NCBI GenBank assembly: GCA_945889495.1 | Contig: CAMDBU010000028.1 | Coordinates: forward strand, 1-43,834 | From: Syntrophobacter sp. SbD2 | Lineage (GTDB): Bacteria; Desulfobacterota; Binatia; UBA9968 | DNA length: 43,834 nucleotides | Direction: 5' to 3' | Shown: positions 1,683 through 42,880 of the stretch, in pieces | How the letters are laid out: each line of letters begins with the position of its first letter | Position numbering within the stretch: position 1 is the stretch's first letter | The notes under the pieces: generated by a model | Databases searched by the model: none | What the model saw: only the letters and a program-made list of their open reading frames with translations | Told to the model about the DNA's origin: nothing | Translations under genes and position numbers: made by a program

Positions 1683-1822
1683 GGTTGGGTTACAACAGCT
1701 TAGGAAAATTTGCCGGTCATGATCTAATTCGGCAAATCCGCGCCGATCTTTAGCGGTTAATTTGCAGCGCCATGGCGCGCTGGTGTAAGACGGATGGAGA
1801 CAGAAACTGGAGGACTATGACC

Positions 1823-2719
1823 ATGGCGATTCGAATCGGCACCTCGGAACTGGGCGGGACTTTTTACACTCAAGGGCAGGCGATCGCGGAACTATTCAAC
1901 CAGGGGACGGCGGGCGACCGGTGCGTCGTCCAGACCAGCGACGCGAGCATTCACAATGCCAACCAGCTTGACGCCGGCACGCTGGAGTTCGGTTTCATGG
2001 CGTCCAACTGGATCGGCCGGGCCAAGGACGCCACGGCGCCATTTACCAAGAGTATCGCCATCCGCATGGTGGCGCCGGCCAATGCCGGGCCCATGTGCTT
2101 CGTGCGGCTGGCCAACACGCGCATCGATTCGCTGGCCGACTTCGCCGGCAAGCGCATCGCCATCGGTACCAAGGGCAGCGGCATGGAGCAGCATGTGCGC
2201 ACGATCTTCAACGTCCTGGGGATTTCCTTCGACAGCTTCTCGGCAGTGCATATGGGCTTCGCCGAAGGCGCCGACGCGCTGATCGCCGGAAAGATCGACG
2301 TGCAGTTTCATCCGCCGATCCCCAACGCAGTGCTCAGCGATCTGAGTCAGCGCGCCGAGATTCGGGTGATTCCCTACTCGCAGGCACAGCGCGACAAGCT
2401 GTTCGCCGCCGTTCCGTTCTATCGCCCGGTGGCGGTGGAGAAAAATGCTTTCCGCGGCGTGGTCGAAGAGATCGTTCAAGTGGGCGTGGTCAACGTCATC
2501 GTCAGCCATGCAAGCGTCGCTGAAGCGACGGTCTACCAGATGGCGAAAACCATCGCCGACAATTTAGACAAGCTGCCGCGGATGAACCCGCTGTTCAAAG
2601 GCATGCGCAGTCTCTTCGAGCCGCTGCGCAGCCAAGGCGCGGCGGCGTTCGAGTTCGGCGGCGTACCGCTGCATCCGGGGGCGCTACGCGCTTACAAAGA
2701 GGCGGGATGGTTAGGATAA
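1823..2719 (+). CDS. TAXI-family solute-binding protein, apparently without signal peptide
   Basis: Matches the TRAP-associated extracytoplasmic immunogenic (TAXI) binding-protein family: IGTSELGGTFYTQGQAIAEL at the N-terminus, a central DSLADFAGKRIAIGTKGSG segment, and LHPGALRAYKEAG at the C-terminus, the counterpart of the YHPGAIKFYKDAG end of the four TAXI proteins at 14-18 kb. The chosen ATG is 9 nt after GGAGG (1809-1813). ATG 1817 and an upstream in-frame ATG at 1772 are alternatives, but the 1772 extension (MARWCKTDGDRNWRT) is hydrophilic and no start gives a Sec signal. The predicted product is therefore 298 residues beginning directly with the first beta strand. No TRAP permease is adjacent. 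It may be cytoplasmic, or the true start may be mis-assigned. Confidence 0.85.
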   Translation: MAIRIGTSELGGTFYTQGQAIAELFNQGTAGDRCVVQTSDASIHNANQLDAGTLEFGFMASNWIGRAKDATAPFTKSIAIRMVAPANAGPMCFVRLANTRIDSLADFAGKRIAIGTKGSGMEQHVRTIFNVLGISFDSFSAVHMGFAEGADALIAGKIDVQFHPPIPNAVLSDLSQRAEIRVIPYSQAQRDKLFAAVPFYRPVAVEKNAFRGVVEEIVQVGVVNVIVSHASVAEATVYQMAKTIADNLDKLPRMNPLFKGMRSLFEPLRSQGAAAFEFGGVPLHPGALRAYKEAGWLG

Positions 2720-11699: not shown

Positions 11700-12761
11700 A
11701 TGGACTATCAAATAATCGATGCCGATGGCCATGTGATTGAGGATGAGAGTTTGTTCGACTATCTCGACGCCAACTATCGGGCGCTGGATCATCAGCTGAG
11801 CTGGGACCGGCTGTTTCCGTCCCTCGACTTTCATCATATCGGCGGCCACTCGACGCGCAACAAGAAATCCTTCGGCGGCGGCAAGAAGGTCGGGCCCAAG
11901 GAGTGGCTGGAGTTCGTCGACATGGCCAATCTCGAATACTCCGTGCTCTATCCGACCAAGGGACTGCGCATCGGCAATATCAGCCATCCCGATTGGGCCT
12001 GCTTCGTCGCGCGCGCCTACAACGATTGGCTACATGACCGTTATTTGAAAGCTAGCCCGCGCTTGAAAGGCATGGCGCTGTTGCCGATGCAGGATGTTGA
12101 CGAGGCGGTTAGCGAGTTGCGCCGGGCGGTGAAACAATTGGGTTTCGTCGGCGCCATGCTGCCGTCGCGCGGTTTGCCCTTCGATCTCGGCCATAAAAGC
12201 TATTGGCCGGTCTACGCCGAAGCGGAGCGCTTGGGCTGCGCGCTGGGCGTCCATGGCGGCGCCCATCACGGCATGGGGCTCGATACGTTTGAAACCTTCG
12301 TGCCGATTCACGCCTTGGGCCATCCGCTGTCGTTGATTATCGCGTTTACCGGCATGGTGTATCACGGGGTGTTTCGCGAATTTCCCAAGCTGCGCATGGG
12401 CTTTCTCGAAGGCGGCGCCGGCTGGGTGACTTTCTGGATGGACCGGCTCGACCGCTCGCATTCCTATCATTTGGAGCTCAATCTGCGCGGCAAGTACAAA
12501 GGTCCGTCGGTGGAGGATGTGCCGAGCGATTATATTAAGAAGGGACAGATCTTCATCGGCTGTGAAGGCAACGAAGAAGGTTTGCCGTACCAAATCCAGC
12601 GCGCCGGTAACCAGCATTTTCTCTTCGCCAGCGATTTTCCCCATGAGATCGGCCCCGACGATATCCTGCATGAAATTGACGAGGTCGCCGAAGCGCCGAT
12701 CTCCGACGCCGACAAGCGCGCGGTGCTGCGCGACAACGCCAAGCGGTTTTATGGAATTTAG
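11700..12761 (+). CDS. amidohydrolase family 2 (ACMSD-like metal-dependent hydrolase)
   Basis: A 353-residue TIM-barrel hydrolase or decarboxylase of the PF04909 type. The N-terminal metal site reads DADGH (7-11), the variant in which the first histidine of HxH is Asp. Other expected ligands are His185 in VHGGAHHG, His204 or His208 in IHALGHP, and Asp312 in the conserved SDFPHE. LEGGAGWVTFWMDRLD (237-251) is another hallmark of this subgroup. Family members hydrolyse or decarboxylate aromatic and cyclic carboxylates; the substrate is not determinable. It is a tandem paralogue of the next gene. The start is supported by GGAG 9-10 nt upstream. Confidence 0.92.
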   Translation: MDYQIIDADGHVIEDESLFDYLDANYRALDHQLSWDRLFPSLDFHHIGGHSTRNKKSFGGGKKVGPKEWLEFVDMANLEYSVLYPTKGLRIGNISHPDWACFVARAYNDWLHDRYLKASPRLKGMALLPMQDVDEAVSELRRAVKQLGFVGAMLPSRGLPFDLGHKSYWPVYAEAERLGCALGVHGGAHHGMGLDTFETFVPIHALGHPLSLIIAFTGMVYHGVFREFPKLRMGFLEGGAGWVTFWMDRLDRSHSYHLELNLRGKYKGPSVEDVPSDYIKKGQIFIGCEGNEEGLPYQIQRAGNQHFLFASDFPHEIGPDDILHEIDEVAEAPISDADKRAVLRDNAKRFYGI

Positions 12762-12934: not shown

Positions 12935-13999
12935 ATGCGGCAGAATAGATTCCCGGTGATCGACGGCGACGGCCATATCACCGAGCGCAGCAAAGAGATT
13001 CTCGAATATCTTGGCGGCAACTATCGCGGCACGTCCAAGGACGAAAGTTGGGCCGATACGTTTGCGCCGTTTCCCTCCCTTGACGGCTGGGCGCGGCTGT
13101 CGGGCATGAGTTCGCCGGGGCTGCGCGATTATCCCGACTGCGACACCTGGGGCGCCTTTCTCGATGAGTGCGGCATTCAAACCACCGTGGTCTATCCGAC
13201 CGCGGCGCTGGCCTTCGGCCTGATTCAAGATCCAGCTTGGGCCGTCGAGATCGCCCGCGCTTACAACTCCTGGCTCTACGCCACCTACACCAAGAAAAAT
13301 CCGCGCATCTTGGGCGCGGCAATTATTCCGGTCCACGACGTGGCGGCGGCGATTGTCGAACTACGCCGGGTGAAAAACGATCTCGGCATGCCCGGCGCGA
13401 TGTTTCCCTCGGTGACCCGGCTGCGCAAGGGCTACGGTCATGAGAGTTTCTTCCCGCTCTACGAAGAGGCCTGCAAGCTCGATATGCCGATCGCCATTCA
13501 CGGCGCGCCGAGCCGCGGGCTGGGCTTTGACTTTTTCGATTCCTTCGTCGAAGTGCATGCGTTGGAACATCCCGTGCCGCTGATGATTCAGATGACCAAC
13601 ATGATTTTTCAGGGCGTCTTCGAGCTGTTCCCGCAGCTGCGGGTCGCCTATCTCGAAGCCGGCGCCGGCTGGGTGCCGTTCATGATGGACCGCCTCGATG
13701 AAGACTTTGAACGGCGCGGCAAGAAATGGGCGCCGCGCTTGAAAAAACGGCCGAGCGATTACATCACCGGCGGCCAGGTTTATGTTTCCCTGGAGTCCGA
13801 GGAAAGAACCTTGCCTTACGTTCTCGAACTGTTCGGCGAGGACCATATTTTCTTCGCCTCGGACTATCCCCATGAGCGCCAGCGGGCCCAGTACCTGCAC
13901 GACATTCCAGAGCTCGAAGCGCGCCAGGATATTTCCGATGTGGCGAAGCGGAAAATTCTCGCCGACAACGCGCGGGTGTTTTATCGATTGGCGGATTGA
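12935..13999 (+). CDS. amidohydrolase family 2 (second paralogue)
   Basis: A 354-residue relative of the preceding gene, preceded by GGGAGGA. The metal-site residues follow the same plan: DGDGH (10-14), His189 in IHGAPSRG, His208 or His212 in VHALEHP, and Asp310 with His313 in SDYPHE. YLEAGAGWVPFMMDRLDED (239-257) is the subgroup signature. The two proteins differ around the substrate-side loops (for example GGAHHGMGL against GAPSRGLGF), so they probably handle related but different substrates. The tandem arrangement suggests duplication followed by divergence. Cytosolic; no signal peptide. Confidence 0.92.
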   Translation: MRQNRFPVIDGDGHITERSKEILEYLGGNYRGTSKDESWADTFAPFPSLDGWARLSGMSSPGLRDYPDCDTWGAFLDECGIQTTVVYPTAALAFGLIQDPAWAVEIARAYNSWLYATYTKKNPRILGAAIIPVHDVAAAIVELRRVKNDLGMPGAMFPSVTRLRKGYGHESFFPLYEEACKLDMPIAIHGAPSRGLGFDFFDSFVEVHALEHPVPLMIQMTNMIFQGVFELFPQLRVAYLEAGAGWVPFMMDRLDEDFERRGKKWAPRLKKRPSDYITGGQVYVSLESEERTLPYVLELFGEDHIFFASDYPHERQRAQYLHDIPELEARQDISDVAKRKILADNARVFYRLAD

Positions 14000-14156: not shown

Positions 14157-15194
14157 ATGAAACTGGCTAACAATTGTTTACGCCTGTTCTTAGCTTTGCA
14201 GCTGTTGGTGCTGCCGGTGCTTTCACTCGATGCTTGGGCGGTCAAGCTCGATTGCAGTTCCGCTAGCAGCAGTAACGATCTACCGCGCACGGCGGCGCTG
14301 GCGACCAATCCGGCCGGCACGGGGGCTCATGCATTGGGCGCGGGGCTGGCGTCGGTGGCGGGTAAGGTGACCGGGATCTCGGTCAAGGTGCAACCCTACA
14401 ACGGCCCCAACGCCTGGATGCCATTATTGGAAAGCGGCGAGTTGGAGTTGGGCGTGCTCAACATTCTCGACTCGCAGATGGCCGCCACCGGCACCGGCAA
14501 TTATAAAAAAGCCTATCCCATGGTGCGGGTGATCGCCGGCGGCGTGTTCCCCTTCACCGCGTCGGCGATGGTGCGCGACAAGTCTGACATCAAGCAGATC
14601 AGCGACTTGAAAGGCAAACGGGTGGCCTGGGATTACGGCGGCCACGCGATCTCGCAGACCTATCTCAACGCGGTGTTGGAAACCGGCGGCGTGAAACCTA
14701 GCGACGTGCAGCAAGTGCGGGTATCCAACGTCAACGACGGCATTCGCGCCGTGCCCGAAGGCAAGGTCGATGCGTCATGGACCTCCCTCGGCATCGGCGT
14801 GGTCGAGGAGGCCAACGCCATGGAGCCGATTCGGATTCTCAATATCCCGAACACCGAGGCGTCCAACAAGATTCTCGCCCGCTACGGCGGTTCCGTCGTC
14901 AAAGCGACGCCGGCGGCGGGCGTGCGCGGCGAGACTTTCGTGCTCGGCTACGCGCTGCATATAGTCGGTTCGAGCAAGTTGAGCGACCGCATGGTGACGG
15001 CCTTGACCAAAGCTTGGTGGGACAATCTCGCCGAGCTGCAAACCATCCATCCGCTGTTCAAACAGTGGACCAAGGAAAACCAGGCGATCACCAATTTCAC
15101 GATTCCCTATCATCCGGGCGCCATCAAGTTCTACAAAGACGCCGGCGTCTGGACGGCGAAGCATGACGCGCGCACCAAGGAGATTTGCGGCTAG
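14157..15194 (+). CDS. TAXI-family TRAP solute-binding protein, copy 1 of 4
   Basis: A 345-residue exported binding protein. The signal (MKLANNCLRLFLALQLLVLP) is cleaved near AWA-VK. Core features shared by all four copies are TNPAGTGAH, VQPYNGPNAWMPLLESGE, NYKKAYPMVRVIAGGVFPF, LKGKRVAWDYGGHAISQT, EEANAMEPIR, KAWWDNLAELQTIHPLFK and a YHPGAIKFYKDAGVW terminus. The mature protein has exactly two cysteines, one in KLDC near the N-terminus and one in KEICG at the C-terminus. It is the first gene of a five-gene TAXI-TRAP operon. ATG is preceded by GGAGACGGAGGC. Confidence 0.94.
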   Translation: MKLANNCLRLFLALQLLVLPVLSLDAWAVKLDCSSASSSNDLPRTAALATNPAGTGAHALGAGLASVAGKVTGISVKVQPYNGPNAWMPLLESGELELGVLNILDSQMAATGTGNYKKAYPMVRVIAGGVFPFTASAMVRDKSDIKQISDLKGKRVAWDYGGHAISQTYLNAVLETGGVKPSDVQQVRVSNVNDGIRAVPEGKVDASWTSLGIGVVEEANAMEPIRILNIPNTEASNKILARYGGSVVKATPAAGVRGETFVLGYALHIVGSSKLSDRMVTALTKAWWDNLAELQTIHPLFKQWTKENQAITNFTIPYHPGAIKFYKDAGVWTAKHDARTKEICG

Positions 15195-15240
15195 GAAGAG
15201 AAGAATGGCGTGATGGAGTAAAGGAGTGTTGGAGTGATGA
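15081..15240 (+). repeat. near-identical tract shared with 16161-16320
   Basis: The last 114 nt of TAXI copy 1 plus the following 46 nt match the end of copy 2 plus its downstream spacer at an exact offset of 1080 nt. I count 2 differences in the coding part and 5 in the spacer/start. The rest of the two genes is visibly more diverged. Confidence 0.85.
15215..15235 (+). promoter_or_regulatory. triple GGAGT ribosome-binding array before TAXI copy 2
   Basis: GGAGT occurs at 15215, 15223 and 15231 (period 8). The middle one is 9 nt from ATG 15237 and fixes the start; the last overlaps an in-frame GTG at 15234. Confidence 0.7.
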
Positions 15241-16274
15241 GAAAGAAATACTGGAGACAATTCATTGCGACGGCAGTGGTTTTTATTCAGATGCTCGCTC
15301 CGCTTTACGTTGCCAACGCCAAGGTCGACTGCGGGCCGGTGGTCAACAAGGGCAACGAGCTGGCGCGCAGCGTTGCCATCGGCACCAGCCCGGCGGGCAC
15401 CGGTGCGTTCTCTCTCGGTTCCGGGCTCGCCGCGGTGGCGAGCAAGTCGACGCCGATCATCGCCAAGGTGCAGCCCTACGCCGGGCCCAATTCGTTTGTG
15501 CCGTTGCTCGAAAGCGGCGAGATCGAGTTCGGCATCATCAATATTCTTGACGCCCATATGGCGATGACCGGCACCGGCACTTACAAGAAAGCCTATCCGA
15601 GCTTGCGCGTGCTCACCGGCGGTGTGTTTCCATTCACCGGCGGCATCATGGTGCGCGACAAGTCGGACATCAAGCAGGTGAGCGATTTGAAGGGCAAAAA
15701 GTTGGCCTGGGATTTTGGCGGCCATGCGGTGGTCCAGGCGTTGTTCAACGCCGCGCTGGAAACCGGCGGCATCAAAGCGTCGGATGTCACGCAGGTGCGC
15801 GTTAGCACTTCCAACGACGGCATCCGCGGCGTCGCCGAGGGTAAGGTTGACGCGACCTACGCATCGCTCGGCACCGGCATCAACGAAGAGGCAAACGCCC
15901 AGGACCCCGTGCGCTTTCTCAATATCCCCAATACTGACGCGAACAATCGGACTCTCGGCAAACTCGGCAGCTCGGTGGTCAAAGCCGAGCCCGCCACCGG
16001 GATTCGCGGCGACACCTTTGTCGTTGGCTATCCGCTGCATATTTTGACTTCGACCAAGGTCAACGAGCGCACGGTGCAGGCGGTGCTCAAGGCCTGGTGG
16101 GACAATCATGCTGAGCTCTTGACGATCCATCCGTTGTTCAAACAGTTCACCAAGGATGTCCAGGCGATCACCAATTTCACGATTCCCTATCATCCGGGCG
16201 CCATCAAGTTCTACAAAGACACCGGTGTCTGGACGGCGAAGCATGACGCGCGCACCAAGGAGATTTGCGGCTAG
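15237..16274 (+). CDS. TAXI-family TRAP solute-binding protein, copy 2 of 4
   Basis: About 345 residues. The signal (MRKKYWRQFIATAVVFIQML) is cleaved near ANA-KV. It has the same fold and motifs as copy 1 but is the most divergent at ligand-side positions: VQPYAGPNSFVPLLESGE replaces NGPNAWMPLLE, AMTGTGTYKKAYPSLRVLTGG replaces AATGTGNYKKAYP-type sequence, and EEANAQDPVR replaces EEANAMEP. This suggests a different ligand. Two cysteines (KVDC and KEICG) are conserved. The C-terminal 38 residues are almost identical to copy 1, consistent with recent gene conversion or duplication. ATG was chosen by the ribosome-binding array. Confidence 0.94.
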   Translation: MRKKYWRQFIATAVVFIQMLAPLYVANAKVDCGPVVNKGNELARSVAIGTSPAGTGAFSLGSGLAAVASKSTPIIAKVQPYAGPNSFVPLLESGEIEFGIINILDAHMAMTGTGTYKKAYPSLRVLTGGVFPFTGGIMVRDKSDIKQVSDLKGKKLAWDFGGHAVVQALFNAALETGGIKASDVTQVRVSTSNDGIRGVAEGKVDATYASLGTGINEEANAQDPVRFLNIPNTDANNRTLGKLGSSVVKAEPATGIRGDTFVVGYPLHILTSTKVNERTVQAVLKAWWDNHAELLTIHPLFKQFTKDVQAITNFTIPYHPGAIKFYKDTGVWTAKHDARTKEICG

Positions 16275-16320
16275 GAAGAGAAGAATGTACCGATGGAGTA
16301 AAGGAGTGTTGGAGTGATGG
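16161..16320 (+). repeat. near-identical tract, second copy of 15081-15240
   Basis: See the entry at 15081; this copy spans the 3' end of TAXI copy 2 and the leader of copy 3. Confidence 0.85.
16295..16315 (+). promoter_or_regulatory. triple GGAGT ribosome-binding array before TAXI copy 3
   Basis: GGAGT at 16295, 16303 and 16311; the middle one is 9 nt from ATG 16317. Confidence 0.7.
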
Positions 16321-17366
16321 TAAGAAAAAATAAACTTCGGCTGATCTCGGCGGCGATGGCGCTCGCGTTTGGCTTTGCGCCGCTGCGATATTTTCGTGCT
16401 GACGCCTGGGCAAAACTCGATTGCAGCGCGACGGCGGAAAAGAGCATTGTCTTGCCGCGCACGGTAGCGATCGCGTCCAATTTGCCTGGCACGGGCGCCC
16501 ATTCCTTGGCGGCGGGATTGTCGGCGGTGGCGAGCAAAGTGACCACCATGTCGTCCAAGGTCCAGCCCTACAATGGACCCAACGCCTGGATGCCGCTGCT
16601 CGAACAGGGTGAGGTCGAGTTCGGCATCATCAATATTCTCGACGCCAACATGGCGGCCACCGGCACCGGCAATTATAAAAAAGCTTATCCGATGATACGC
16701 GTCGTCGCCGGCGGCGTGTTTCCGTTCACCGGCAGCATCATGGTGCGCGACAAGGCGGAGATCAAAAGCGCCGCCGACTTGAAAGGCAAGCGCATGGCTT
16801 GGGACTTTGGCGGCCACGCGATCACTCAGATTTGGCAACAGGCGGCGCTGGAAGTGCTCGGGGTCAAGGCGAGCGATATCCAGCAGGTGCGTTTCTCCAA
16901 CTTGAACGACGCCATCCGGGCCGTGCCCGAGGGCAAGATCGACGCGACCTTCGCCGCCATCGGCATCGGCATCAACGAAGAGGCCAACGCCATGGAGCCG
17001 ATTCGCTTTCTCAGCCTGCCGGACAACGCGGCGTCGAACAAAATCCTCGCCAAGTATGGCGCCGCGGTGGTCAAGCAGGAGCCGACGGCGGGCATTCGCA
17101 CCGACACCCGGGTGATCGGCTACCCTTTGCACCTGGCGAGTTCGACCAAGGTCAGCGACAAGACCGTAGCGACGCTGCTCAAAGCCTGGTGGGATAATAT
17201 CGGCGAGCTGCAAACCATTCATCCGCAATTTAAAAAATGGACCAAGGAGGTCCAGGCGATCACCAACTTCACCGTGCCCTATCACGACGGCGCGGTGAAG
17301 TTTTACCGCGATGCCGGCGTCTGGGGCGCCAAGCATGATGCGCGTACGCGGGAGATTTGTAGCTGA
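16317..17366 (+). CDS. TAXI-family TRAP solute-binding protein, copy 3 of 4
   Basis: About 349 residues, with a signal (MVRKNKLRLISAAMALAFGF) cleaved near AWA-KL. Shared motifs are VQPYNGPNAWMPLLEQGE, NYKKAYPMIRVVAGGVFPF, LKGKRMAWDFGGHAITQ, EEANAMEPIRFLSLPD and KAWWDNIGELQTIHPQFKKW. Two cysteines (KLDC and REICS) are kept, though the terminal residue is Ser instead of Gly. It differs from the others at the N-terminal ligand strand (ASNLPGTGAHSLAAGL). It is followed after 35 nt by copy 4. Confidence 0.94.
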   Translation: MVRKNKLRLISAAMALAFGFAPLRYFRADAWAKLDCSATAEKSIVLPRTVAIASNLPGTGAHSLAAGLSAVASKVTTMSSKVQPYNGPNAWMPLLEQGEVEFGIINILDANMAATGTGNYKKAYPMIRVVAGGVFPFTGSIMVRDKAEIKSAADLKGKRMAWDFGGHAITQIWQQAALEVLGVKASDIQQVRFSNLNDAIRAVPEGKIDATFAAIGIGINEEANAMEPIRFLSLPDNAASNKILAKYGAAVVKQEPTAGIRTDTRVIGYPLHLASSTKVSDKTVATLLKAWWDNIGELQTIHPQFKKWTKEVQAITNFTVPYHDGAVKFYRDAGVWGAKHDARTREICS

Positions 17367-17378
17367 GGAGGGGATCGA

Positions 17379-17399
17379 TGGAGTGTTGGAGTAAGGGAG
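17379..17399 (+). promoter_or_regulatory. triple GGAGT ribosome-binding array before TAXI copy 4
   Basis: GGAGT at 17379, 17387 and 17395 (period 8). The middle one is 10 nt from ATG 17402, which supports that start over the in-frame ATG at 17378. Confidence 0.7.
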
Positions 17400-17401
17400 T
17401 G

Positions 17402-18427
17402 ATGGTTAAAAAGGGATTCGCTCTGTCGTTGGCGTCGCTACTCATGGTGGCGCAAGTGCGGACCGTCGAAGCCAAGCTCGATTGCGGGCCGACGATGAAC
17501 AAAAGTATTCAACTGCCGCGGACTATCGCCATCGGCACCAATCCGGCCGGCACCGGCGCCCATGCGATCGCGTCGGGGTTGGCGGCGATCGCTAGTAAAT
17601 CGACCCAGGTGTCAGCCAAGGTGCAGCCCTACAACGGTCCCAATGCTTGGATGCCATTGCTTGAAAGCGGCGAGATCGAGTTCGGCATCATCAATATTCT
17701 CGACTCCCACATGGCCGCCACCGGCACCGGCAATTATAAAAAAGCCTATCCCGGCGTGCGCATTGTCGCCGGCGGCGTGTTCCCGTTCACCGCCGGAATC
17801 ATCGTCAAGGATAAGTCGGAGATCAAACAGATGGCCGATCTCAAGGGCAAACGGGTCGCCTGGGATTACGGCGGCCATGCGATCAATCAGACTTGGCAGT
17901 TGGCGGTGATGGAAGCCAGCGGTGTGAAACCGACCGATGTGCAGCAGGTGCGGGTGTCGAACTTGAACGATGGCGTACGCGCGGTGCCCGAAGGTAAAGT
18001 CGACGCGTCGTTCACCGCCGTCGGTATTGGCGTGGTCGAAGAGGCCAACGCCATGGAGCCGGTGCGATTTCTCAGCATGCCGAACACGGCGGCGGCCACC
18101 AAGATTCTCAGCCGCTACGGTGCCTCGGTGGTGAAGTCCGAGGCCGCCGCCGGCATCAAAGGCGATACCTACGTCATTGGTTATCCGCTCCACCTGGCGA
18201 GCATGACCAACGTCAGCGATAAGACCGTCTACACCATGCTCAAAGCCTGGTGGGACAATTTAGCGGAGCTGCAGACGATTCATCCGCTGTTCAAGAAATG
18301 GCCCAAGGAAATGCAGGCGCTGACCAACTTCACCGTGCCCTATCATTCGGGGGCGATTCAATTTTACCGGGAAGCGAAGGTTTGGGGCGCTCGACAGGAC
18401 GCCCGCAGCAAAGAGATCTGCGGTTAG
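17402..18427 (+). CDS. TAXI-family TRAP solute-binding protein, copy 4 of 4
   Basis: About 341 residues, with a short signal (MVKKGFALSLASLLMVAQV) cleaved near VEA-KL. It carries the shared TAXI motifs (TNPAGTGAHAIASGL, VQPYNGPNAWMPLLESGE, LKGKRVAWDYGGHAINQT, EEANAMEPVRFLSMPN, KAWWDNLAELQTIHPLFKKW) and the same two cysteines (KLDC and KEICG). It ends YHSGAIQFYREAKVWGARQD, the most altered C-terminus of the four. It lies 42 nt upstream of the TRAP permease, so it is the copy most tightly linked to it. The four proteins are clearly of one recent family. Confidence 0.94.
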   Translation: MVKKGFALSLASLLMVAQVRTVEAKLDCGPTMNKSIQLPRTIAIGTNPAGTGAHAIASGLAAIASKSTQVSAKVQPYNGPNAWMPLLESGEIEFGIINILDSHMAATGTGNYKKAYPGVRIVAGGVFPFTAGIIVKDKSEIKQMADLKGKRVAWDYGGHAINQTWQLAVMEASGVKPTDVQQVRVSNLNDGVRAVPEGKVDASFTAVGIGVVEEANAMEPVRFLSMPNTAAATKILSRYGASVVKSEAAAGIKGDTYVIGYPLHLASMTNVSDKTVYTMLKAWWDNLAELQTIHPLFKKWPKEMQALTNFTVPYHSGAIQFYREAKVWGARQDARSKEICG

Positions 18428-18469
18428 CGGCGCAACACCGCGCTCCGGCGTAGCGACAAGGAGATATTC

Positions 18470-20437
18470 GTGGAAATTGAAGAAAGCGTACGCGGACGGG
18501 AACTCAGCGGATTTCCCGACTGGCTCGGGCGGTCGTTGCTTGTTGCGATTCCTTTAACCGGGATATTTTTTCTCCTCAACCTGCCGCAGCAAATCGGCTG
18601 GTTGGTGTTCAACGAACAGTATATGGGGCTGTTCCTCGGTCTTGGCCTATGCGCGACCTATATTTTGATCCCGTTCAAACCTAGCGTCGGCCGCCATCAT
18701 GTGCCCTGGTACGATGTCATCGCCGCCTTGGCCGGCTTGGCGGTGGGTTTGTACGTGTTCATTTTCTACCCGTCCATCGTCAATTCGATGGGCGAGATCG
18801 CCACCGAGCGGGTAATTCTCGGCTGTGTGACGATTCTCCTCCTCGCCGAAGCCTCGCGCCGCCTGGTCGGCTGGCCGCTGGTGATCATCGCCGGCTGTTT
18901 TTTATTTTACGCTTACTTCGCCTATATCTTCCCCGGCGATTTCTACGGCAAGGGTTGGTCGATCAACCGCTTGGCGACCTATCTCTATCTCGACGCCAAC
19001 GGCATCTTCGGCCAGGCGCTCCAGGTCGGCGTCAGCATCGTCATAGTCTTCGTGATTTTCGGCGAAGTGCTGTTCGTCGTCGGCGGCGCCGAGTTCTTGA
19101 GCGATTTCTCGTTGAGTTTGATGGGGCGCTATCGCGGCGGCCAGGCGAAGATCGCCATCGTGTCGTCGAGCTTGTTCGGCAACATCAGCGGCAGCGCGGT
19201 GGCCAATGTGGTGGTCGACGGCGCCTTCACCATTCCGATGATGAAAAAAGCTGGCTACCCGGCGCCGCAAGCGGCCGCCATCGAAGCCACCGCTTCCACC
19301 GGCGGCCAGATCATGCCGCCGGTGATGGGCGCGGCGGCCTTCCTGATCGCCGAATATTTGCAAATCCCTTACGCCCAAGTGGCGTTGGCCGCGGCGGTGC
19401 CGGCGGTGCTCTATTATGTCGCGCTGTTCATTCAGGTCGATCTTTTGGCCGCGCGCAACGGGATTCATGGCCTGCCGCGGGAAGAAGTGCCGCATCTGCT
19501 GCCGGTGCTCAAGCGCTCGGCGAGCTTCGTCTTGCCGCTGACGGTGTTGATCCTGTGGATGTTCGTCCTCAACCGCCGGCCCGAAGAGGCCGGCTTACTG
19601 GCGGCGTTGGCGGCGTTGATTGTCGGCATCCTCACCCCAGGGATAAAAATCGGCCGGGCCGAAATCCTGCGCATACTCACCAACGCCGGCCGCGGCATGT
19701 TGGAGATCGTCGCCATCACCGGACTCGCCGGCGTGGTCATCGGCGTCTTGCAATTGACCGGACTCGGTTTCACGCTGACGTTGACATTACTCAACATTGG
19801 CCAGAGTAATGCGCTGTTGCTGCTCGTGCTCACCGCCATCGTCAGCATCATTCTCGGCATGGGCATGCCGACAACGGCGGTGTACGTGCTGCTCGCGGTG
19901 CTGGTCGCGCCCGGACTGGCCAAGCTCGGTATCGTGCCCATCGCCGCCCATCTGTTTATTTTTTACTTCGGCATGTTGAGCATGGTGACGCCGCCGGTGT
20001 GCATGGCGAGCTACGCCGCGGCCTCCATCGGCAAGACCGATCCGGTGCAAACCGGCTGGGAGGCGATGAAGCTTTGTAGCATCGCTTACATCGTGCCGTT
20101 CCTGTTTGTCTTCTCGCCGTCGCTGTTACTGATCGGCCACTGGTACGAGGTGGTACTCTCGGTGATCACCGCGATCATCGGTTCGATCTTGTTGGGCGTT
20201 GGCATCGTCGGTTATTTGTTCCGCCCGGTCGGCGCATTGAAGCGGCTCTTGTTTAGCATCGCCGCCGTCGGTTTGCTGATTCCGGTGGTGCATAGCGGAC
20301 CGTACGCGAGCATGACCTGGGCGTCCAACGGTATCGGATTGGTACTGGCGGTGTTACTGGTCGCCGTCGAATGGATCGCCCGCGGCCATGATAAGTCGCT
20401 GGCCGCGCCCGGCGGTGTCAATGCGCCGGCGCACTAA
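18470..20437 (+). CDS. TRAP transporter fused permease (DctQ-DctM type), TAXI-associated
   Basis: A 655-residue polytopic inner-membrane protein, the only transport membrane component in the window. The GTG start follows AAGGAG at 6 nt. The N-terminal part (about 1-160) holds the small-subunit (DctQ-like) helices, and the rest is the large DctM-like subunit. Diagnostic segments are EATASTGGQIMPPVMGAAAF (about 270-290) and LGMGMPTTAVYVLLAVLVAP (about 461-480). Fused 4TM+12TM permeases are characteristic partners of TAXI binding proteins and drive ion-coupled uptake of organic acids. Position directly after four TAXI genes strongly suggests it is shared by all of them. Confidence 0.95.
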   Translation: MEIEESVRGRELSGFPDWLGRSLLVAIPLTGIFFLLNLPQQIGWLVFNEQYMGLFLGLGLCATYILIPFKPSVGRHHVPWYDVIAALAGLAVGLYVFIFYPSIVNSMGEIATERVILGCVTILLLAEASRRLVGWPLVIIAGCFLFYAYFAYIFPGDFYGKGWSINRLATYLYLDANGIFGQALQVGVSIVIVFVIFGEVLFVVGGAEFLSDFSLSLMGRYRGGQAKIAIVSSSLFGNISGSAVANVVVDGAFTIPMMKKAGYPAPQAAAIEATASTGGQIMPPVMGAAAFLIAEYLQIPYAQVALAAAVPAVLYYVALFIQVDLLAARNGIHGLPREEVPHLLPVLKRSASFVLPLTVLILWMFVLNRRPEEAGLLAALAALIVGILTPGIKIGRAEILRILTNAGRGMLEIVAITGLAGVVIGVLQLTGLGFTLTLTLLNIGQSNALLLLVLTAIVSIILGMGMPTTAVYVLLAVLVAPGLAKLGIVPIAAHLFIFYFGMLSMVTPPVCMASYAAASIGKTDPVQTGWEAMKLCSIAYIVPFLFVFSPSLLLIGHWYEVVLSVITAIIGSILLGVGIVGYLFRPVGALKRLLFSIAAVGLLIPVVHSGPYASMTWASNGIGLVLAVLLVAVEWIARGHDKSLAAPGGVNAPAH

Positions 20438-30149: not shown

Positions 30150-31811
30150 ATGCCCCAACCCGCTATCAATCCGATCACCGTCGAGGTCGTGCGCAACGGC
30201 TTGGCGCATATCGCCAACGAGATGGCCACCGTGCTGCGTAAGACTTCCTACAACATGATGATCTACGAGGTGCGCGACTATTGCGTCGGCATCGTCGATC
30301 CGGACGGCAATATTCTGTCGCAGAACTTCGGCGCGCTGCCGATCTTTTTGGCCGATCTCGGCCCGGCCATCGTCGACGGCGTGCGCATGCATGGGCGCGA
30401 CGGTTTCAAGCCCGGCGATGTGCTGATCATGAATCATCCCTATGTCTGCGGCCAGCATTTGAACAACGTGGTGGTCTACACGCCGTTTTTTCACCAAGGC
30501 GAGTTGGTGGCGTTTCTCGCCGTGCGCGCGCATTGGATCGATATCGGCGGCCGGCCGATGGGATTCGGTTTCAGCGGCACGCGGGAGGTTTACGAAGAAG
30601 GGTTGCAGTTTCGTTCGCTGAAGCTCTACCGCGGCGCGGAGCCCAATCAGGAACTGTTTCAGATCATCACCGACAATGTCCGCTTCGCGGAATCTTCATT
30701 GGGCGATCTGCGCGCGCAGATCGCCGCCTGCCGGGTCGGCGACCGCGGTCTTGGCGCGCTGGTGCGCCGCTACGGTTTAGAATCGTTCCTGCAATGCGTC
30801 GGCAAGATTTGGCAGCAGTCCGAGGCGTTGGCACGGGAACAGGTGGCGCGCATCAAACCGGGAAAATATTCAGCCGAAGCTTTGTTCGACAGCGACGGCG
30901 TCAATCTCGATCAGCCGGTGCCGTTGAAAGTCATAGTCGAAGTCGCCGGCAGCGATATGACCATCGATTTTTCCGAGTTGAGCGAGCAGGTGGCGGGCTC
31001 GATCAACTCCGGCGAGTCCGGCGCGGTGGCGGCGGCGCGGGTGGCGTTTAAATCGCTCGTCAGTCCCTACGCTCCTATTGATGAAGGTTGTTTTCGCGCG
31101 CTGAAAGTTATCATCCCGCCGGGAAAAATTTTGAGCGCCACGCCGCCGTCGCCGGTGGGTAACTGGAGCCGGACTTTGCCGACGGTGATCGATTTGATCT
31201 TTCGCGCCTTGGCGCCAGCCATGCCGGAGCGCATCGCCGCGGGCCACAAGGGCGACATGGGCGGCTATGCTTTTTTCGGCGTCAATCCCAAAACCGGCCG
31301 GCGCTTTCTCTGCCAGACCATCATGGGCGGTGGCTGGGGCGGCCGGCCCCATGAAGACGGCGAGAACGCCACGGTGTCGATGTGCCAAGGCGATGTGCAG
31401 AACGCGCCGGTGGAGATCCAAGAAATTTTTTATCCAGTGCTGATCGAGCGCCAGCAACTGCGCGAGGGTAGCGGCGGCGCGGGAAAATTTCGCGGCGGCC
31501 TCGGCATCGAAGTGACCGTGCGCGTGCTGTGCGACGCTGCCACGAATATTAACGTCGAACGCCAGCGCACCGCGCCCTGGGGACTGTTCGACGGCGAGTG
31601 CGGCGAGCGGGCGAAAGCGCTGGTCAAACAATCACCCGACGATCCCGGTGTGTGGCTGACCAAGAAGCCCAACTATCCGTTGAAAGCGGGCGGCAGCGTG
31701 ACGTTCTACACCGCGGGCGGCGGTGGTTATGGCGCCGCCGATGAACGCGCGCATGATTTGATTGGCCGAGATGAGCGACTTGGGTATATGCGGGCGATCC
31801 ACGAAAAGTAG
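30150..31811 (+). CDS. hydantoinase B/oxoprolinase family protein (N-methylhydantoinase B-like)
   Basis: A 553-residue cytosolic protein of the HyuB family. Hallmarks are NPITVEVVRNGLAHIANEMA, SYNMMIYEVRDYCVGIVD, GDVLIMNHPYVCGQHLNNVV, and a C-terminal GEGGAGKFRGGLGIEVTVRV-like segment (EGSGGAGKFRGGLGIEV) followed by TAGGGGYG. With HyuA it forms ATP-dependent hydrolases of cyclic amides (hydantoins, 5-oxoproline) or carboxylases of ketones. Length is close to the family norm. The usual partner gene hyuA is not adjacent but 6.4 kb downstream (38170), which is unusual. The start is ATG with a weak ribosome binding site. Confidence 0.93.
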   Translation: MPQPAINPITVEVVRNGLAHIANEMATVLRKTSYNMMIYEVRDYCVGIVDPDGNILSQNFGALPIFLADLGPAIVDGVRMHGRDGFKPGDVLIMNHPYVCGQHLNNVVVYTPFFHQGELVAFLAVRAHWIDIGGRPMGFGFSGTREVYEEGLQFRSLKLYRGAEPNQELFQIITDNVRFAESSLGDLRAQIAACRVGDRGLGALVRRYGLESFLQCVGKIWQQSEALAREQVARIKPGKYSAEALFDSDGVNLDQPVPLKVIVEVAGSDMTIDFSELSEQVAGSINSGESGAVAAARVAFKSLVSPYAPIDEGCFRALKVIIPPGKILSATPPSPVGNWSRTLPTVIDLIFRALAPAMPERIAAGHKGDMGGYAFFGVNPKTGRRFLCQTIMGGGWGGRPHEDGENATVSMCQGDVQNAPVEIQEIFYPVLIERQQLREGSGGAGKFRGGLGIEVTVRVLCDAATNINVERQRTAPWGLFDGECGERAKALVKQSPDDPGVWLTKKPNYPLKAGGSVTFYTAGGGGYGAADERAHDLIGRDERLGYMRAIHEK

Positions 31812-31999
31812 CAGGTGGGGCGAGTTTCACGAGTGAAACATGATCGAACGGCGGCGAGCAAATTAACTCTTACCCCCTCGCCGATGCCGATGGGAGAGCG
31901 CAGAGGTGCGGGCGCTTGCGGCGAAGAAACCCATCGCCGCTGGGAGTCGAATTGGCGGGAGCGCTGACAGGAGCGATCGTCGCCAATTATTTCTTCAAT

Positions 32000-32028
32000 T
32001 TGACAACCCCATCGACCGGCATTAGTCT
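32000..32028 (+). promoter_or_regulatory. candidate promoter of the phd/relE-type operon
   Basis: A perfect TTGACA (32000-32005) is followed after 17 nt by TAGTCT (32023-32028; 3 of 6). TAGTC recurs 12 nt later, and these direct repeats could be the antitoxin's operator. Seen by eye only. Confidence 0.4.
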
Positions 32029-32058
32029 AAATTCTAGTCCAATTTTAAGGAGATCGTT

Positions 32059-32346
32059 ATGGCACGTGTTCTAAGCTTATCTGAAGCCAAGGCCCATCTC
32101 AGCCGGCTAGTGGCTGACTGTGAAAAGGATGAGGAAGAGCTTGTCATTACCCGAAATGGCCGGCCCGCGGCTGTTCTCATCAGCGCCGACGAGTATGAAG
32201 GTTGGCGCGAAACCAAAGAGATCATGCGTAACCGCCCCCTGATGAAGGAAATTAGACAAGGTCTGCGGCAGCTCGAGAAAGGCCGGCGGTTTACTTTCGA
32301 GGAAGTTTTCGGCGAGCCCTTGAGACCGAGCAAAAATTCAAAATGA
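32059..32346 (+). CDS. Phd/YefM-family antitoxin
   Basis: A 95-residue protein whose N-terminal half is the classical Phd/YefM DNA-binding domain: VLSLSEAKAHLSRLVADCEK, then EELVITRNGRPAAVLISADE and YEGWRETKEI. The basic/aromatic C-terminal tail (RQLEKGRRFTFEEVFGEPLR) would wrap the toxin. The ATG follows AAGGAG at 7 nt. Its stop overlaps the toxin start by 4 nt (ATGA). It opens a likely accessory island between hyuB and the M24 genes. Confidence 0.92.
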   Translation: MARVLSLSEAKAHLSRLVADCEKDEEELVITRNGRPAAVLISADEYEGWRETKEIMRNRPLMKEIRQGLRQLEKGRRFTFEEVFGEPLRPSKNSK

Positions 32347-32645
32347 TCCGTTATCGCGTCGAAATGGCTCGGGCGCTGCGGGATCTCATCCGCCACCTCC
32401 CCCCGGAGTTGAAAGCAAAAGTCAAAGCTGCACTAAGAACAATTGCCGACGATCCCCATCGCGCTAAGGAGTTGCGCGACGATTTGGCAGGCTTGAGAAG
32501 CTACCGGATAGGCGGTTTCCGAGTGATCTTTCGTATCGTCGGTTCCATGCTTCAAATCGTTGCGCTTGGACCTCGTGCGGACATCTATGAGCGTGCGGCC
32601 GCCGAACTCAGTAAGTTCTTGAGGAAACCCAAACCCATTAAATAA
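32343..32645 (+). CDS. RelE/StbE-family toxin
   Basis: A 100-residue RelE-superfamily toxin: VEMARALRDLIRHLPPELKA, then LRTIADDPHRAKELRDDLAG, LRSYRIGGFRVIFRIVGSML and IVALGPRADIYERAA. The LR-x-YRIGxFRVIF core and the terminal R-x-x-IYERA motif are the usual ones for ribosome-dependent mRNA interferases. It is translationally coupled to the antitoxin. The C-terminal tail (ELSKFLRKPKPIK) is basic. Confidence 0.92.
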   Translation: MIRYRVEMARALRDLIRHLPPELKAKVKAALRTIADDPHRAKELRDDLAGLRSYRIGGFRVIFRIVGSMLQIVALGPRADIYERAAAELSKFLRKPKPIK

Positions 32646-32719
32646 TTCTAAATTTTAGTCCGCGGGGCTGCTTGCCGTCCGCTGGGCTGCTTTTGGACTG
32701 GGCTAAGGGAGATAAAAAC

Positions 32720-33778
32720 ATGACCAAAACATTTTCAATCCGGTTTCCGGTGTCTTCCTCCGGCAATCCAAAATCGAAAATCCAAAATCGCAAACTGGTG
32801 GGGTGTGTCGCCCTCGCTTTCACATTCGCCATCGGTGGGGCTGTGGCCGGGGCGCAGCAGCCGAAGAAAGTCCCGCGGATAGGGTATCTATCGCAGCTCG
32901 ATCCAGCTCGTGAGTCCGCCCGTGCCGAGGGAATTCGGTTGGCTCTGCGCGAGCATGGCTACATAGAAGGACAGAACATCGCCACCGAGTACCGATATGC
33001 TGAGGGAAAGCCCGATCGGTATCCTCAGCTTGCGGCCGAACTGGTGCGACTCAAGGTTGATATCATCGTGGCAGCAGGAGGGGCCAGTGTAATCCGGGCG
33101 GCCATGAATGCGACCAAGACGATTCCAATCGTTATGACGGGCCAAGGGATCGATCCTGTCGGGGCAGGCCTGGTTGAAAGCCTTGCCCGTCCCGGCGGCA
33201 ATGTCACGGGCATTACAAACCTTGGCAGAGAGCTCGGCGGTAAGCGGCTGGAGTTGCTCAAAGAAGCCGTTCCAAAACTTGCCAGTGTCGCGGTTCTCTA
33301 CACCACGACCGGTTCTGGCAACGTAATCGAGGTGAAAGAGGGTCTCCCAGCGGCGGCGCGAGCGCTGAAGTTGACTCTTCAACCTTGGGATGTACGGGGC
33401 ACGGACGATTTCGAGAGGGTTTTTCCTGCGCTGAACAAGCAGCGCCCGGATGGACTCTACGTGCTCGGGAGCCTGATAATGAGTGCCAACCAAAAACGAA
33501 TCATCGGCTTTGCGTTAAAGAGCCGGTTGCCGTCGATGTACGTCACTAGAGAAACTGTAGAGGCCGGCGGGCTCATGTCCTACGGGGCGGACCAAGCGGA
33601 GAGCTACCGGCGCGTGGCATACTACGTGGACAGAATCCTGAAGGGAGCTAAGCCCGCCGATCTACCGGTGGAGCAGCCGATGAAGTTCGAGTTGGTGATC
33701 AATCTCAAGACAGCGAAGCAGATTGGCGTGACGATTCCGCCGGAGCTGCTGGCGCGGGCGACTAGGATAATCAAATGA
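32720..33778 (+). CDS. ABC transporter substrate-binding protein (ABC_sub_bind, PF04392 type), copy A
   Basis: About 352 residues from ATG 32720 (GGGAG 8 nt upstream). The export signal is unusual: an n-region of about 26 residues including NPKSKIQNRK precedes the hydrophobic core VGCVALAFTFAIGGAVAGA (cleavage near AGA-QQ). That n-region is encoded by a 7-nt-period repeat at 32765-32791. The mature start QQPKKVPRIGYLSQ and the segments GQNIATEYRYAEGKPDRYPQ, SLARPGGNVTGITNLGRELG and YYVDRILKGAKPADLPVEQP identify the family, which includes the tryptophan/tyrosine-type binding proteins. It is a tandem duplicate of the next gene. No permease or ATPase is adjacent. Confidence 0.9.
   Translation: MTKTFSIRFPVSSSGNPKSKIQNRKLVGCVALAFTFAIGGAVAGAQQPKKVPRIGYLSQLDPARESARAEGIRLALREHGYIEGQNIATEYRYAEGKPDRYPQLAAELVRLKVDIIVAAGGASVIRAAMNATKTIPIVMTGQGIDPVGAGLVESLARPGGNVTGITNLGRELGGKRLELLKEAVPKLASVAVLYTTTGSGNVIEVKEGLPAAARALKLTLQPWDVRGTDDFERVFPALNKQRPDGLYVLGSLIMSANQKRIIGFALKSRLPSMYVTRETVEAGGLMSYGADQAESYRRVAYYVDRILKGAKPADLPVEQPMKFELVINLKTAKQIGVTIPPELLARATRIIK
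32765..32791. repeat. 7-nt-period repeat inside a signal-peptide coding region
   Basis: Units of ATCCAAA and ATCGAAA alternate four times with the last degenerate. Translated it gives the NPKSKIQNRK part of the signal peptide of the gene at 32720. Confidence 0.65.
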
Positions 33779-33781
33779 CAG

Positions 33782-33810
33782 CGGTCAGCCGTCAGCGATC
33801 AGTGGTCAGC
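33782..33810. repeat. 7-nt-period GGTCAGC repeat
   Basis: Four units close to CGGTCAG, starting 3 nt after the stop of copy A and ending 21 nt before the start of copy B. Confidence 0.65.
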
Positions 33811-33831
33811 AAGAACCTCGGAGCAAAATCC

Positions 33832-34824
33832 ATGATGAAATCTATTCTCTTCGGCCTACTGATAGCTGTCTTGCTGACAGCTACCCCGCCCGCCCAGGCG
33901 CAGCAGCCGAAGAAAGTCGCGCTGATAGGGTATCTATCGAATACCGACCGAGCTGGTGAGTTCATCCGTGCCGAGGCAATTAGGCTTACTCTGCGCGAGC
34001 GTGGCTACATAGACGGCGAGAACATCGCCATCGAGTACCGTTATGCGGAGGGGAAGCCCGATCGGCAGTCTGAGCTTGCTACCGAGCTGGTCCGTCTCAA
34101 GGTTGATATCATCCTGGTAACAGGAGGGGACGGTGTGATCCGGGCGACCAAGAACGCAACCAAAACGATTCCCATCATTATGATGGGCTCTGTGGCCGAT
34201 CCTGTCGAGGCAGGCTTCGTTGAAAGCCTTGCCCGTCCCGGCAGCAACATTACCGGCCTGACAAACCTTAGCAGAGAACTAGGCGGTAAGCGGCTGGAGC
34301 TGCTCAAAGAAGCGGTCCCCAAAGCGATCCGTGTCGCGGTGCTCTACGATCCGGCCAGTTCGAGTAGCGTCGTCGAAGTGAAAGATGTTCTCCCAGCCGC
34401 GGCGCGCGCGCTGAAGTTGACTATTCAGCCTTGGGAGGTACGAAGCGCCGATGGTTTAGAGAACGTCTTTGCTACGCTAAACAAGCAGCGTCCTGATGCA
34501 CTCTACGTATCAGCAGGCCCGCTAATGAGTCCTAACGAAAAACGGATCATTGGCTTTGCGTTAAAGAGCCGGTTGCCTTCGATGTTTGCCAACAGAGCGC
34601 CTGTAGATGCCGGCGGGCTCATGTACTACGGCGCGGACCAAGCGGAGAGCTACCGGCGCGTCGCCTACTACGTGGACAGGATCCTGAAGGGAACCAAGCC
34701 TGCCGATCTGCCGGTCGAGCAGCCGATGAAGTTCGAGTTGGTGATCAATCTCCAGACGGCGAAGCAGATCGGCGTGACGATTGCGCCGGAGGTGCTGGCG
34801 CGGGCGACTAAGTTGATCAAGTAA
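33832..34824 (+). CDS. ABC transporter substrate-binding protein (ABC_sub_bind, PF04392 type), copy B
   Basis: About 330 residues from ATG 33832, which is 8 nt after CGGAG and starts a normal signal (MMKSILFGLLIAVLLTATPP, cleavage near AQA-QQ). The open frame extends upstream to 33775 but that part encodes the GGTCAGC repeat. The mature sequence parallels copy A closely from QQPKKVALIGYLS onward (GENIAIEYRYAEGKPDR, SLARPGSNITGLTNLSRELG, ALKSRLPSMF, DRILKGTKPADLPVEQP, ELVINLQTAKQIGVTI). It is a clear tandem duplicate with changes concentrated in the ligand side (for example VTGGDGVIRATKNATKTI against VAAGGASVIRAAMNATKTI). Orphan binding protein. Confidence 0.92.
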   Translation: MMKSILFGLLIAVLLTATPPAQAQQPKKVALIGYLSNTDRAGEFIRAEAIRLTLRERGYIDGENIAIEYRYAEGKPDRQSELATELVRLKVDIILVTGGDGVIRATKNATKTIPIIMMGSVADPVEAGFVESLARPGSNITGLTNLSRELGGKRLELLKEAVPKAIRVAVLYDPASSSSVVEVKDVLPAAARALKLTIQPWEVRSADGLENVFATLNKQRPDALYVSAGPLMSPNEKRIIGFALKSRLPSMFANRAPVDAGGLMYYGADQAESYRRVAYYVDRILKGTKPADLPVEQPMKFELVINLQTAKQIGVTIAPEVLARATKLIK

Positions 34825-34845
34825 TGTTAAGAGGAGAAAAAATCC

Positions 34846-35097
34846 TTGCCAACAATACTTCTCATTCGTGGATGGCGATTCTTTTTCTATGCCAACGAGT
34901 CGAATGAACCGATTCATATCCATTGTCGAAAGGCCGAGAAAGAATGTAAATACTGGTTGGACCGAGCAAGCTTTGGCGTGGTGGAAGCGTTTAGTTATAG
35001 GCTGACCGGGAAAGACAAGCGCGAAGTCATAAAAATAATCTTCGAGCACTTTGAGTACATCGAGAGTGAGTGGGACAAGTTCGAGAAGAAAAAATGA
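34846..35097 (+). CDS. DUF4160-family small protein
   Basis: An 83-residue protein beginning at a TTG codon 9-10 nt after GAGGAG. The pattern PTILLIRGWRFFFYANESNE then PIHIHCRKAEKECKYWLD is the DUF4160 signature (R-x-FFY...EP.H-HV-like). The region is noticeably AT-richer than the surroundings. Its stop overlaps the ATG of the next gene. DUF4160 and DUF2442 genes are commonly found as a pair and have been suspected to form a toxin-antitoxin-like module; that role is inference. Confidence 0.85.
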   Translation: MPTILLIRGWRFFFYANESNEPIHIHCRKAEKECKYWLDRASFGVVEAFSYRLTGKDKREVIKIIFEHFEYIESEWDKFEKKK

Positions 35098-35342
35098 TAA
35101 AAAAATATCATCACGTGAAAATTATCCGTTTTGAGAATCAATTTCTCCTGTTAACCGTCGATGGCCGGGAGTACCGGGTCGATCTTCGGCAACAATCCAA
35201 AAAACTCGCAGCGGCAACCCAGCGTGCGAAGGACAATTTCGAACTGTCGCCGTCAGGGTACGGAATTCACTGGCCGGAGTTAGACGAAGATCTTTCGATT
35301 GACGGAATGATTACGGCTGCGAAGGTGAGAAAGGCGGGATAG
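35094..35342 (+). CDS. DUF2442-family small protein
   Basis: An 82-residue protein from ATG 35094 (overlapping the upstream TGA as ATGA; GAGAAG precedes it). Features are YHHVKIIRFENQFLLLTVDG, REYRVDLRQQSKKLAAAT and SPSGYGIHWPELDEDLSIDG; the GIHWPELDEDLSIDGM segment is diagnostic of DUF2442. It forms a translationally coupled pair with the DUF4160 gene. Biological role not established. Confidence 0.87.
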   Translation: MIKKYHHVKIIRFENQFLLLTVDGREYRVDLRQQSKKLAAATQRAKDNFELSPSGYGIHWPELDEDLSIDGMITAAKVRKAG

Positions 35343-35485
35343 GCGAGACGGCAAATATACCACAGCCAATCAGATCGGCGTGGCCGTCGCGCCGAGTCGA
35401 GTGGTGCGGGGAGTTGTTTGCAGCGTGATGATAATAAATTGGAACCGCAATGGTGAAATGCTTGGGTGAAACTTTCGAGGTGAAT

Positions 35486-36595: not shown

Positions 36596-36598
36596 CTC

Positions 36599-36636: not shown

Positions 36637-36663
36637 GATTCGGATTCGCGCGGTGAGGTTGAG

Positions 36664-37824: not shown

Positions 37825-37852
37825 AATTTAAACTTGCTTTCGCGTCTTCCAT

Positions 37853-42870: not shown

Positions 42871-42880
42871 AGAAAAAAAC

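Follow-up and report, generated by a model that had tools for sequence, protein, structure and literature searches.

A conserved row of TAXI receptor genes before one fused TRAP permease in Syntrophobacter sp. SbD2 and its relatives

In contig CAMDBU010000028.1 of Syntrophobacter sp. SbD2 (assembly GCA_945889495.1), four genes for solute-binding proteins of the TAXI family, named T1 to T4, stand in tandem directly before a single gene for a fused permease of the tripartite ATP-independent periplasmic (TRAP) transporters. This arrangement is real, conserved and recurrent, as computed directly from gene content, gene order, co-orthology with relatives, strong constraint on the proteins, recurrence in a second system of the genus and a stable signature of T2. 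The whole contig, of 43,834 nucleotides (nt), is called the window below; it is contig C28 of the source genome (G000), whose assembly counts 5.64 Mb in 239 contigs and is 95.6% complete.

The receptor row and its permease

The initial annotation of this DNA had described four intact TAXI paralogues before one GTG-started fused TRAP permease, and both the open reading frames (ORFs) and the family scores bear this out: the five proteins all exceed the curated cut-offs of their NCBI families (84.35 bits for TIGR02122, TRAP_TAXI, and 320.65 bits for TIGR02123, TRAP_fused), all five genes lie on the + strand and none carries an internal stop (Table 1). The spacers T1/T2, T2/T3, T3/T4 and T4/permease measure 39, 39, 35 and 42 nt, in line with the 35 to 45 nt or so first reported; the third would shrink to 11 nt if T4 started where its ORF opens, at 17378, the ATG at 17402 being judged the better start. 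In their mature parts, T1 to T4 share 64-72% identity. Judged by eye, T1 has a signal peptide and a GGAGG site upstream, and GGAG-type sites precede the array genes. The spacers 15195-15233, 16275-16313 and 17367-17401 share wording such as GATGGAGTAAAGGAGTGTTGGA, the source of these GGAG ribosome-binding-like sites, and some spacers in G019 and G021 (L047), two other genomes of the genus, carry similar wording. A terminator scan of the four array spacers gave no terminator-like site on the + strand, and a promoter scan returned 6 sites where 4.4 would be expected, none of them near T1.

Table 1. Features of the receptor row and of its immediate surroundings, in window coordinates
Feature	Position (nt)	Strand	Basis and remarks
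Second Amidohydro_2 protein	11700..12761	+	PF04909; 91% identity in L047, directly upstream of the G021 array
Amidohydro_2 protein	12935..13999	+	PF04909; orthologues of 93, 85 and 87% identity in L046 (G019), L048 (G034) and L051 (G032)
T1, TAXI solute-binding protein, 345 amino acids	14157..15194	+	TIGR02122, 148 bits; orthologues G019_a and G021_a at the same position
T1 3' tract, stop, spacer and T2 start	15080..15239	+	6 mismatches in 160 nt against 16160-16319
T2, TAXI solute-binding protein with divergent ligand-side loop AGPNSFVPL	15234..16274, ATG at 15237	+	TIGR02122, 137 bits; orthologues G019_b and G021_c
Partner tract: T2 3' end, stop, spacer and T3 start	16160..16319	+	154/160 match to 15080-15239
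T3, TAXI solute-binding protein	16314..17366, ATG at 16317	+	TIGR02122, 130 bits; orthologues G019_c and G034_a, more distantly G021_d
T4, TAXI solute-binding protein adjoining the permease	17402..18427, ORF opens at 17378	+	TIGR02122, 145 bits; trees
Fused QM TRAP permease, 655 amino acids, GTG start	18470..20437	+	TIGR02123, 622.7 bits at residues 45-634; PF06808 at residues 121-556

The AlphaFold2 model of T4, with a predicted local distance difference test (pLDDT) score of 83.4, finds its best structural matches among solved TAXI proteins, VcGluP first and then TtGluBP. The first seven matches of the fold search are TAXI or 'immunogenic protein' structures, with template modelling (TM) scores to the target of 0.77-0.78 for 9ibo, 8u79, 8s4j and 1us4. 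The permease model is almost wholly helical, its pLDDT of only 62.5 being too low for a fold search; for this protein, Pfam gives DctM alone and no claw domain DUF3394 was matched. The system resembles VcGluP/VcGluQM and TtGluBP in receptor family (TIGR02122), receptor fold and fused permease family (TIGR02123), whereas VcGluP is described with one cognate membrane component (PMC11574862) and the permease studied here follows a row of four receptors; in that paper, a word search met neither tandem nor multiple receptors. In all 23 aligned clade members, the mature protein has an invariant cysteine close to either end (T4 residues 28 and 340), and an N- to C-terminal disulfide between the two is possible.

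Conservation among relatives and in a second system

One binding protein per permease, which the initial annotation had taken as the norm, does prevail when co-oriented TAXI genes adjacent to a permease, at most 400 nt away, are counted. The count draws on a listing of 35 genomes of the order that gives at least 63 permease loci within the window's family, almost all having frames of 500 amino acids or longer; of these 63, 44 were usable, their upstream side not lying within 500 bases of a contig end. At these 44 loci, adjacent TAXI genes number none in 3 cases, one in 33 (in one of which the receptor lies downstream of the permease), two in 4, three in 2 and four in 2. Since one of the pairs (G013:C220) consists of two pieces of one broken gene, at least two whole copies occur at 7 of the 44 loci, and the loci where whole copies number three or four, four in all, belong without exception to the window's genus. 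The 19 loci cut by contig ends have none (6), one (8), two (4) or three (1, broken-gene pieces included). Left out of the count were G012:C129, where a permease cut by the contig end adjoins two TAXI genes, with a further two close by, G013:C767, where a split permease has one TAXI gene before and two after it, and G026:C290. Besides, a tblastn search of T4 against 72,556 plasmid records at 1e-10 matched 87 records at 87 places, one each, many of them from strains of one species and 39 of the 87 covering 80% of the query. Across 395 genomes of the phylum, no two neighbouring TAXI genes were seen by eye among the matches listed for the best five candidates per genome, which makes a weak negative.

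The same arrangement, which the initial annotation had proposed to seek in other genomes, was found in several relatives. T4 matches 23 of the 35 genomes of the order at 1e-40, and an alignment of 23 close relatives (A1), searched against 148 genomes of the class, matches 12 genomes at 1e-100, all from the window's family. Within the genus, G019 has three copies and the permease, and G021 four copies and the permease; G034, from another genus, has two copies (T3-T4) by the permease and one on another contig that ends just past that copy. Six further genomes of the family (G016, G032, G015, G030, G028 and G014) have a single copy each. Three clade members lie on three contigs in G012, no permease being recognised in the stretches fetched, one of which is near a contig end, and G013 has a stop-broken copy downstream of its permease. 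Two TAXI genes of a distant type were also noticed side by side in yet another member of the genus (G018:C321:6404-8402), whose genome is 67% complete.

In a first tree, T1 groups with G019_a and G021_a (support 96/99), T2 with G019_b and G021_c (97/96), and T3 with G019_c (100/99) and G034_a (99/95); G021 also has an extra T1-like copy (G021_b, 92/95, unstarred) and an outlying T3-like copy (G021_d, 95/87), and T4 groups with G034_b, near single-copy proteins of other genera. The order of these groups along the DNA is identical in G000, G019, G021 and G034, so that in three species of the genus an orthologous permease is preceded by co-orthologues of T1, T2 and T3 in the same order, in G021 as T1-T1'-T2-T3-like. 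Given this shared order and co-orthology, T1 to T3 predate the split of the three species and have remained separate ever since. In G019 and G021 (98 and 99% complete), the searches gave no T4, none of the three and four clade members, respectively, grouping with it; for that reason, T1 to T3 would be the receptors that serve the permease there, and the other copies probably suffice for it in both species. An assembly artefact, against which the initial annotation had cautioned, is unlikely, the longest exact repeat between copies being only 61 nt (found twice, between T1 and T2) and genomes of other species holding orthologous copies in the same order.

The copies common to the three species show no apparent decay. 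T1 and T2 across species, and T3 between G000 and G019, are 85-91% identical, with a ratio of nonsynonymous to synonymous substitution (dN/dS) of 0.06-0.11 and a silent distance of about 0.8-1.4; for the T3-like copy of G021, identity is 72-75% and dN/dS 0.10-0.16. The ratios of T1 to T3 are similar to those of the permease orthologues (0.08-0.15) and of the two amidohydrolases (0.07, one species pair each). As silent sites are strongly diverged and the proteins conserved, these copies are old and have been kept. Among the paralogues of G000, dN/dS is 0.21-0.30 and the proportion of differing silent sites (pS) 0.48-0.56, against about 0.70 for fully randomised codons; relaxed selection was not accepted as a reading of these ratios, the silent divergence being high.

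Each of the matching tracts of Table 1 takes in roughly the final 37 codons of its gene (T1 or T2) together with the stop, the spacer and the start of the following gene, and falls short of the presumed pocket positions; in the 400 nt upstream of them, 121 positions differ. Over the last 112 coding nt, T1 and T2 agree at 110, compared with 85-94 for each against its own orthologues, and the tract looks like a recent conversion or copying event. With the last 42 columns set aside, codon sharing is slightly higher among the paralogues within G000 (0.613) than between paralogues across species (0.572), the difference having a 95% interval of 0.002-0.086. An array-wide concerted evolution of silent sites was considered and rejected, since it is absent in G019 and G021 and only the 3' tract of T1/T2 is clear.

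A second TAXI-TRAP system of the genus, referred to as the C215 type, repeats the pattern. Its permease in G000 is 47% identical to that of the window, and its receptors number at least two in G000, three in G019 and at least two in G021. Two co-orthologous sets appear in their tree, namely G000 p1 with G019 p2 and G021 p1 (100/100), and G000 p2 with G019 p3 and G021 p2 (100/100), the latter joined by a copy from another genus, in G017 (99/97), while G019 p1 groups with G034 and G033 (96/95). Because these receptors again form co-orthologous sets in the three species, receptor multiplication before a TAXI permease is kept in two systems of the genus.

Ligand-side positions and the signature of T2

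The glutamate contacts of VcGluP (PMC11574862) were transferred to T4 positions through a profile alignment in which identity is about 20%, S40, V44, Y45 and Y46 being placed by hand via the TtGluBP row; this gives 13 contact-equivalent positions (48, 52, 53, 54, 80, 98, 125, 127, 160, 161, 205, 206 and 208). Of 313 mature positions, 163 differ among T1 to T4, and these include 5 of the 13 contact-equivalent ones (48, 54, 161, 205 and 206) and 158 of the 300 others (odds ratio 0.56, Fisher p = 0.40). The claim that the differences cluster on the ligand side is thus unsupported at this resolution as a general property of the four receptors; substitutions scattered away from the pocket, named at the outset as the finding that would speak against it, are largely what is seen. 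In G000, T1, T3 and T4 are identical at 10 of the 13 positions and differ at 48, 205 and 206. The idea of one permease with four specificities consequently holds in one part only: several receptors are kept, as co-orthology, order and constraint indicate, and the likeness of T1, T3 and T4 leaves four distinct specificities without backing, the four-ligand claim exceeding the data.

T2 stands apart from the other copies. Of the segments first cited for the paralogues, the contrast between NGPNAWMPL and AGPN(S/T)FVPL is stable in all three T2 proteins, the orthologues G019_b and G021_c having AGPNTFVPL, whereas that between AMEP and AQDP is not, T2 orthologues having AMEP and AQEP. The full signature (H54F, N78A, A82S/T, W83F and M84V) is found in 3/3 T2 proteins and 0/20 other clade members. 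Ten comparisons of T2 (4 + 6), differing in pocket width and tolerance, were made. Its 32 fixed group-specific positions include 2 of the 13 contacts (54 and 161) and 30 of the 300 others (p = 0.63), and when the pocket is widened to everything within three residues of a contact, they make up 9 of its 54 positions and 23 of the 259 others (p = 0.13). Among 140 positions that hardly vary in the rest of the clade (20 members), those altered in T2 number 5 of the 31 close to contacts and 5 of the 109 farther away (p = 0.043). For T3, one p of 0.046 at another pocket width is equally weak. The T2 loop VQPYAGPNSFVPL resembles VQPYAGTSTFVPL of a C215-type receptor in G000, and the T2 state may be older rather than derived; as the tree does not settle the root of the clade, polarity is claimed neither way. 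Taken as the strongest model that the sequences suggest, T2 is the best candidate for a receptor with a different ligand. As to the nature of the ligands, Y45, S75, Q93 and E125 of VcGluP correspond to A, P, N and F in T1 to T4 (same alignment at about 20% identity), and since these glutamate-holding residues are not conserved, glutamate is, tentatively, an unlikely ligand.

Neighbouring genes and possible functions of the row

In G019, G034 and G032, the gene immediately upstream of the TAXI genes is an orthologue of the amidohydrolase gene at 12935, and since G032 has a single receptor, this link may be older than the receptor multiplication; at 1e-30, the stretches of G016, G030, G028 and G014 gave no match to either amidohydrolase. 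An NMT1-type binding protein gene and a short-chain dehydrogenase/reductase (SDR) gene also lie upstream of the array in the window. Farther along, at 30150-43810, the window holds genes for hydantoinases A and B, MmgE/PrpD, two M24 peptidases and three ABC_sub_bind proteins. Relatives of four window genes at 35450-41796 stand in the same order upstream of the amidohydrolase in G019 (two M24 peptidases, 86 and 76% identity; hydantoinase A, 92%; MmgE/PrpD, 73%), and it would be a guess to link the array to hydantoin-, oxoproline- or aromatic acid-type catabolism. The fused permease at 18470 is the only one that the searches recovered in the window.

With a confidence little better than even, we favour the reading that several receptors and one permease form an operon-like TAXI-TRAP uptake system in which the specificity of T2 is shifted or older. 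Receptor genes would have been added by tandem duplication upstream of the permease, beside the amidohydrolase gene, and the copies would then have diverged and been kept as distinct proteins. Co-expressed with the others, each receptor would bind its ligand and dock on the same fused elevator permease, and the loaded receptor would set which compound enters, or at what affinity. T2 most likely has a shifted, or a retained older, specificity, and for T1, T3 and T4 a common ligand, or a set of closely related ones, is probable, with affinities that may differ.

Several observations weigh against this reading. TRAP receptors and permeases usually form unique pairs, according to PMC12599236; copy number varies between species (4, 3, 4, 2 and 1); the near-pocket enrichment falls below 0.05 in only one of the ten T2 comparisons (0.043), a weak signal; and the grouping of T4 with G034_b reaches only 88/91 and 89/91 in two trees, unstarred in both. 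Moreover, in a second tree with more outgroups, placing all array copies in one clade gives a likelihood 0.24 above the free tree (p-AU 0.56, approximately unbiased test), so that a single clade of T1 to T4 is neither rejected nor shown. This agrees with the array having arisen once, from a state with one copy, the alternative being an earlier duplication followed by losses.

A more far-reaching proposal, which we advance tentatively and hold to be more doubtful than not, is that TRAP transporters can be modular: under it, both TAXI-TRAP permeases of the genus are common docking ports for stable receptor sets with different ligands, that the permease is not the specificity filter, and that T2, whose loop is partly like that of the second system, imports a different compound through the same elevator.

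Dosage or affinity tuning, in which one ligand is shared by the four receptors and the extra copies serve to supply more receptor per permease or to span a range of concentrations, seems rather unlikely. An excess of receptor over permease is usual in such systems, the agreement of T1, T3 and T4 at contact-equivalent positions would be expected from it, and T1 and T2 are held alike over their near-identical 3' tract; however, the paralogues of G000 are less similar to each other (64-72%) than T1 and T2 are across species and T3 is between G000 and G019 (85-91%), and T2 alters residues that are near-invariant in the 20 other clade members.

It is less probable still that some receptors act in trans, feeding other permeases or serving as sensors, their position in the array being a relic of duplication. 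G000 does have an unpaired fifth TAXI gene of another type in the window (1772-2719; TIGR02122, 190 bits), and its NMT1-type binding proteins are very many (of 482 first-look candidates, the best 150 were scored and 150/150 match PF09084), a richness reminiscent of the receptor expansions of the tripartite tricarboxylate transporters (TTT), a family in which PMC5812351 describes orphan receptors as common. Other permeases are available too, two of the three DctM-type genes of G000 being fused permeases with adjacent TAXI genes and the third lying on C3, yet three such genes are few, and position and order of the array are conserved over three species. A neutral birth and death of tandem copies, devoid of functional meaning, would account for the variable copy number, for the T4 not found in two species, for the extra T1-like copy of G021 and for the broken copy of G013, but is very improbable in view of the purifying selection on the common copies despite large silent divergence and of the same pattern in the second system.

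Systems comparable in part to the multi-receptor uptake favoured here have been described. In Pseudomonas aeruginosa, DppA1-A5/DppBCDF likewise encodes several paralogous receptors with one membrane unit (PMC12728205; PMC4206461), and the former reports distinct substrate profiles for four of them, DppA5 having bound nothing; that system is an ATP-driven ABC transporter with measured ligands, whereas the present one is a TRAP secondary transporter known from sequence. In the same species, the IctQM membrane unit of IctP/DctP + IctQM was suggested by its authors (PMC12599236) to accept a second, related receptor, although there the whole transporter is duplicated and here receptors are multiplied in one row before one permease. 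The TTT expansions, such as the Bordetella bug genes and the 434 TctC of Rhodoplanes (PMC5994714; PMC5812351), are also lineage-specific multiplications of receptors over few permeases, but are genome-scattered or orphan and of another family, in contrast to the ordered copies directly before a permease reported here. In a full-text search that left subscription journals mostly outside, titles and abstract openings among the matches listed revealed no article describing TAXI receptors in tandem ahead of a single TRAP permease.

An old and separately conserved row of receptors, repeated in a second system, offers a natural test case for whether several receptors can work with one TRAP elevator. 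The array also allows to ask where the specificity of TRAP transport lies, its single-copy relatives providing a ready comparison.

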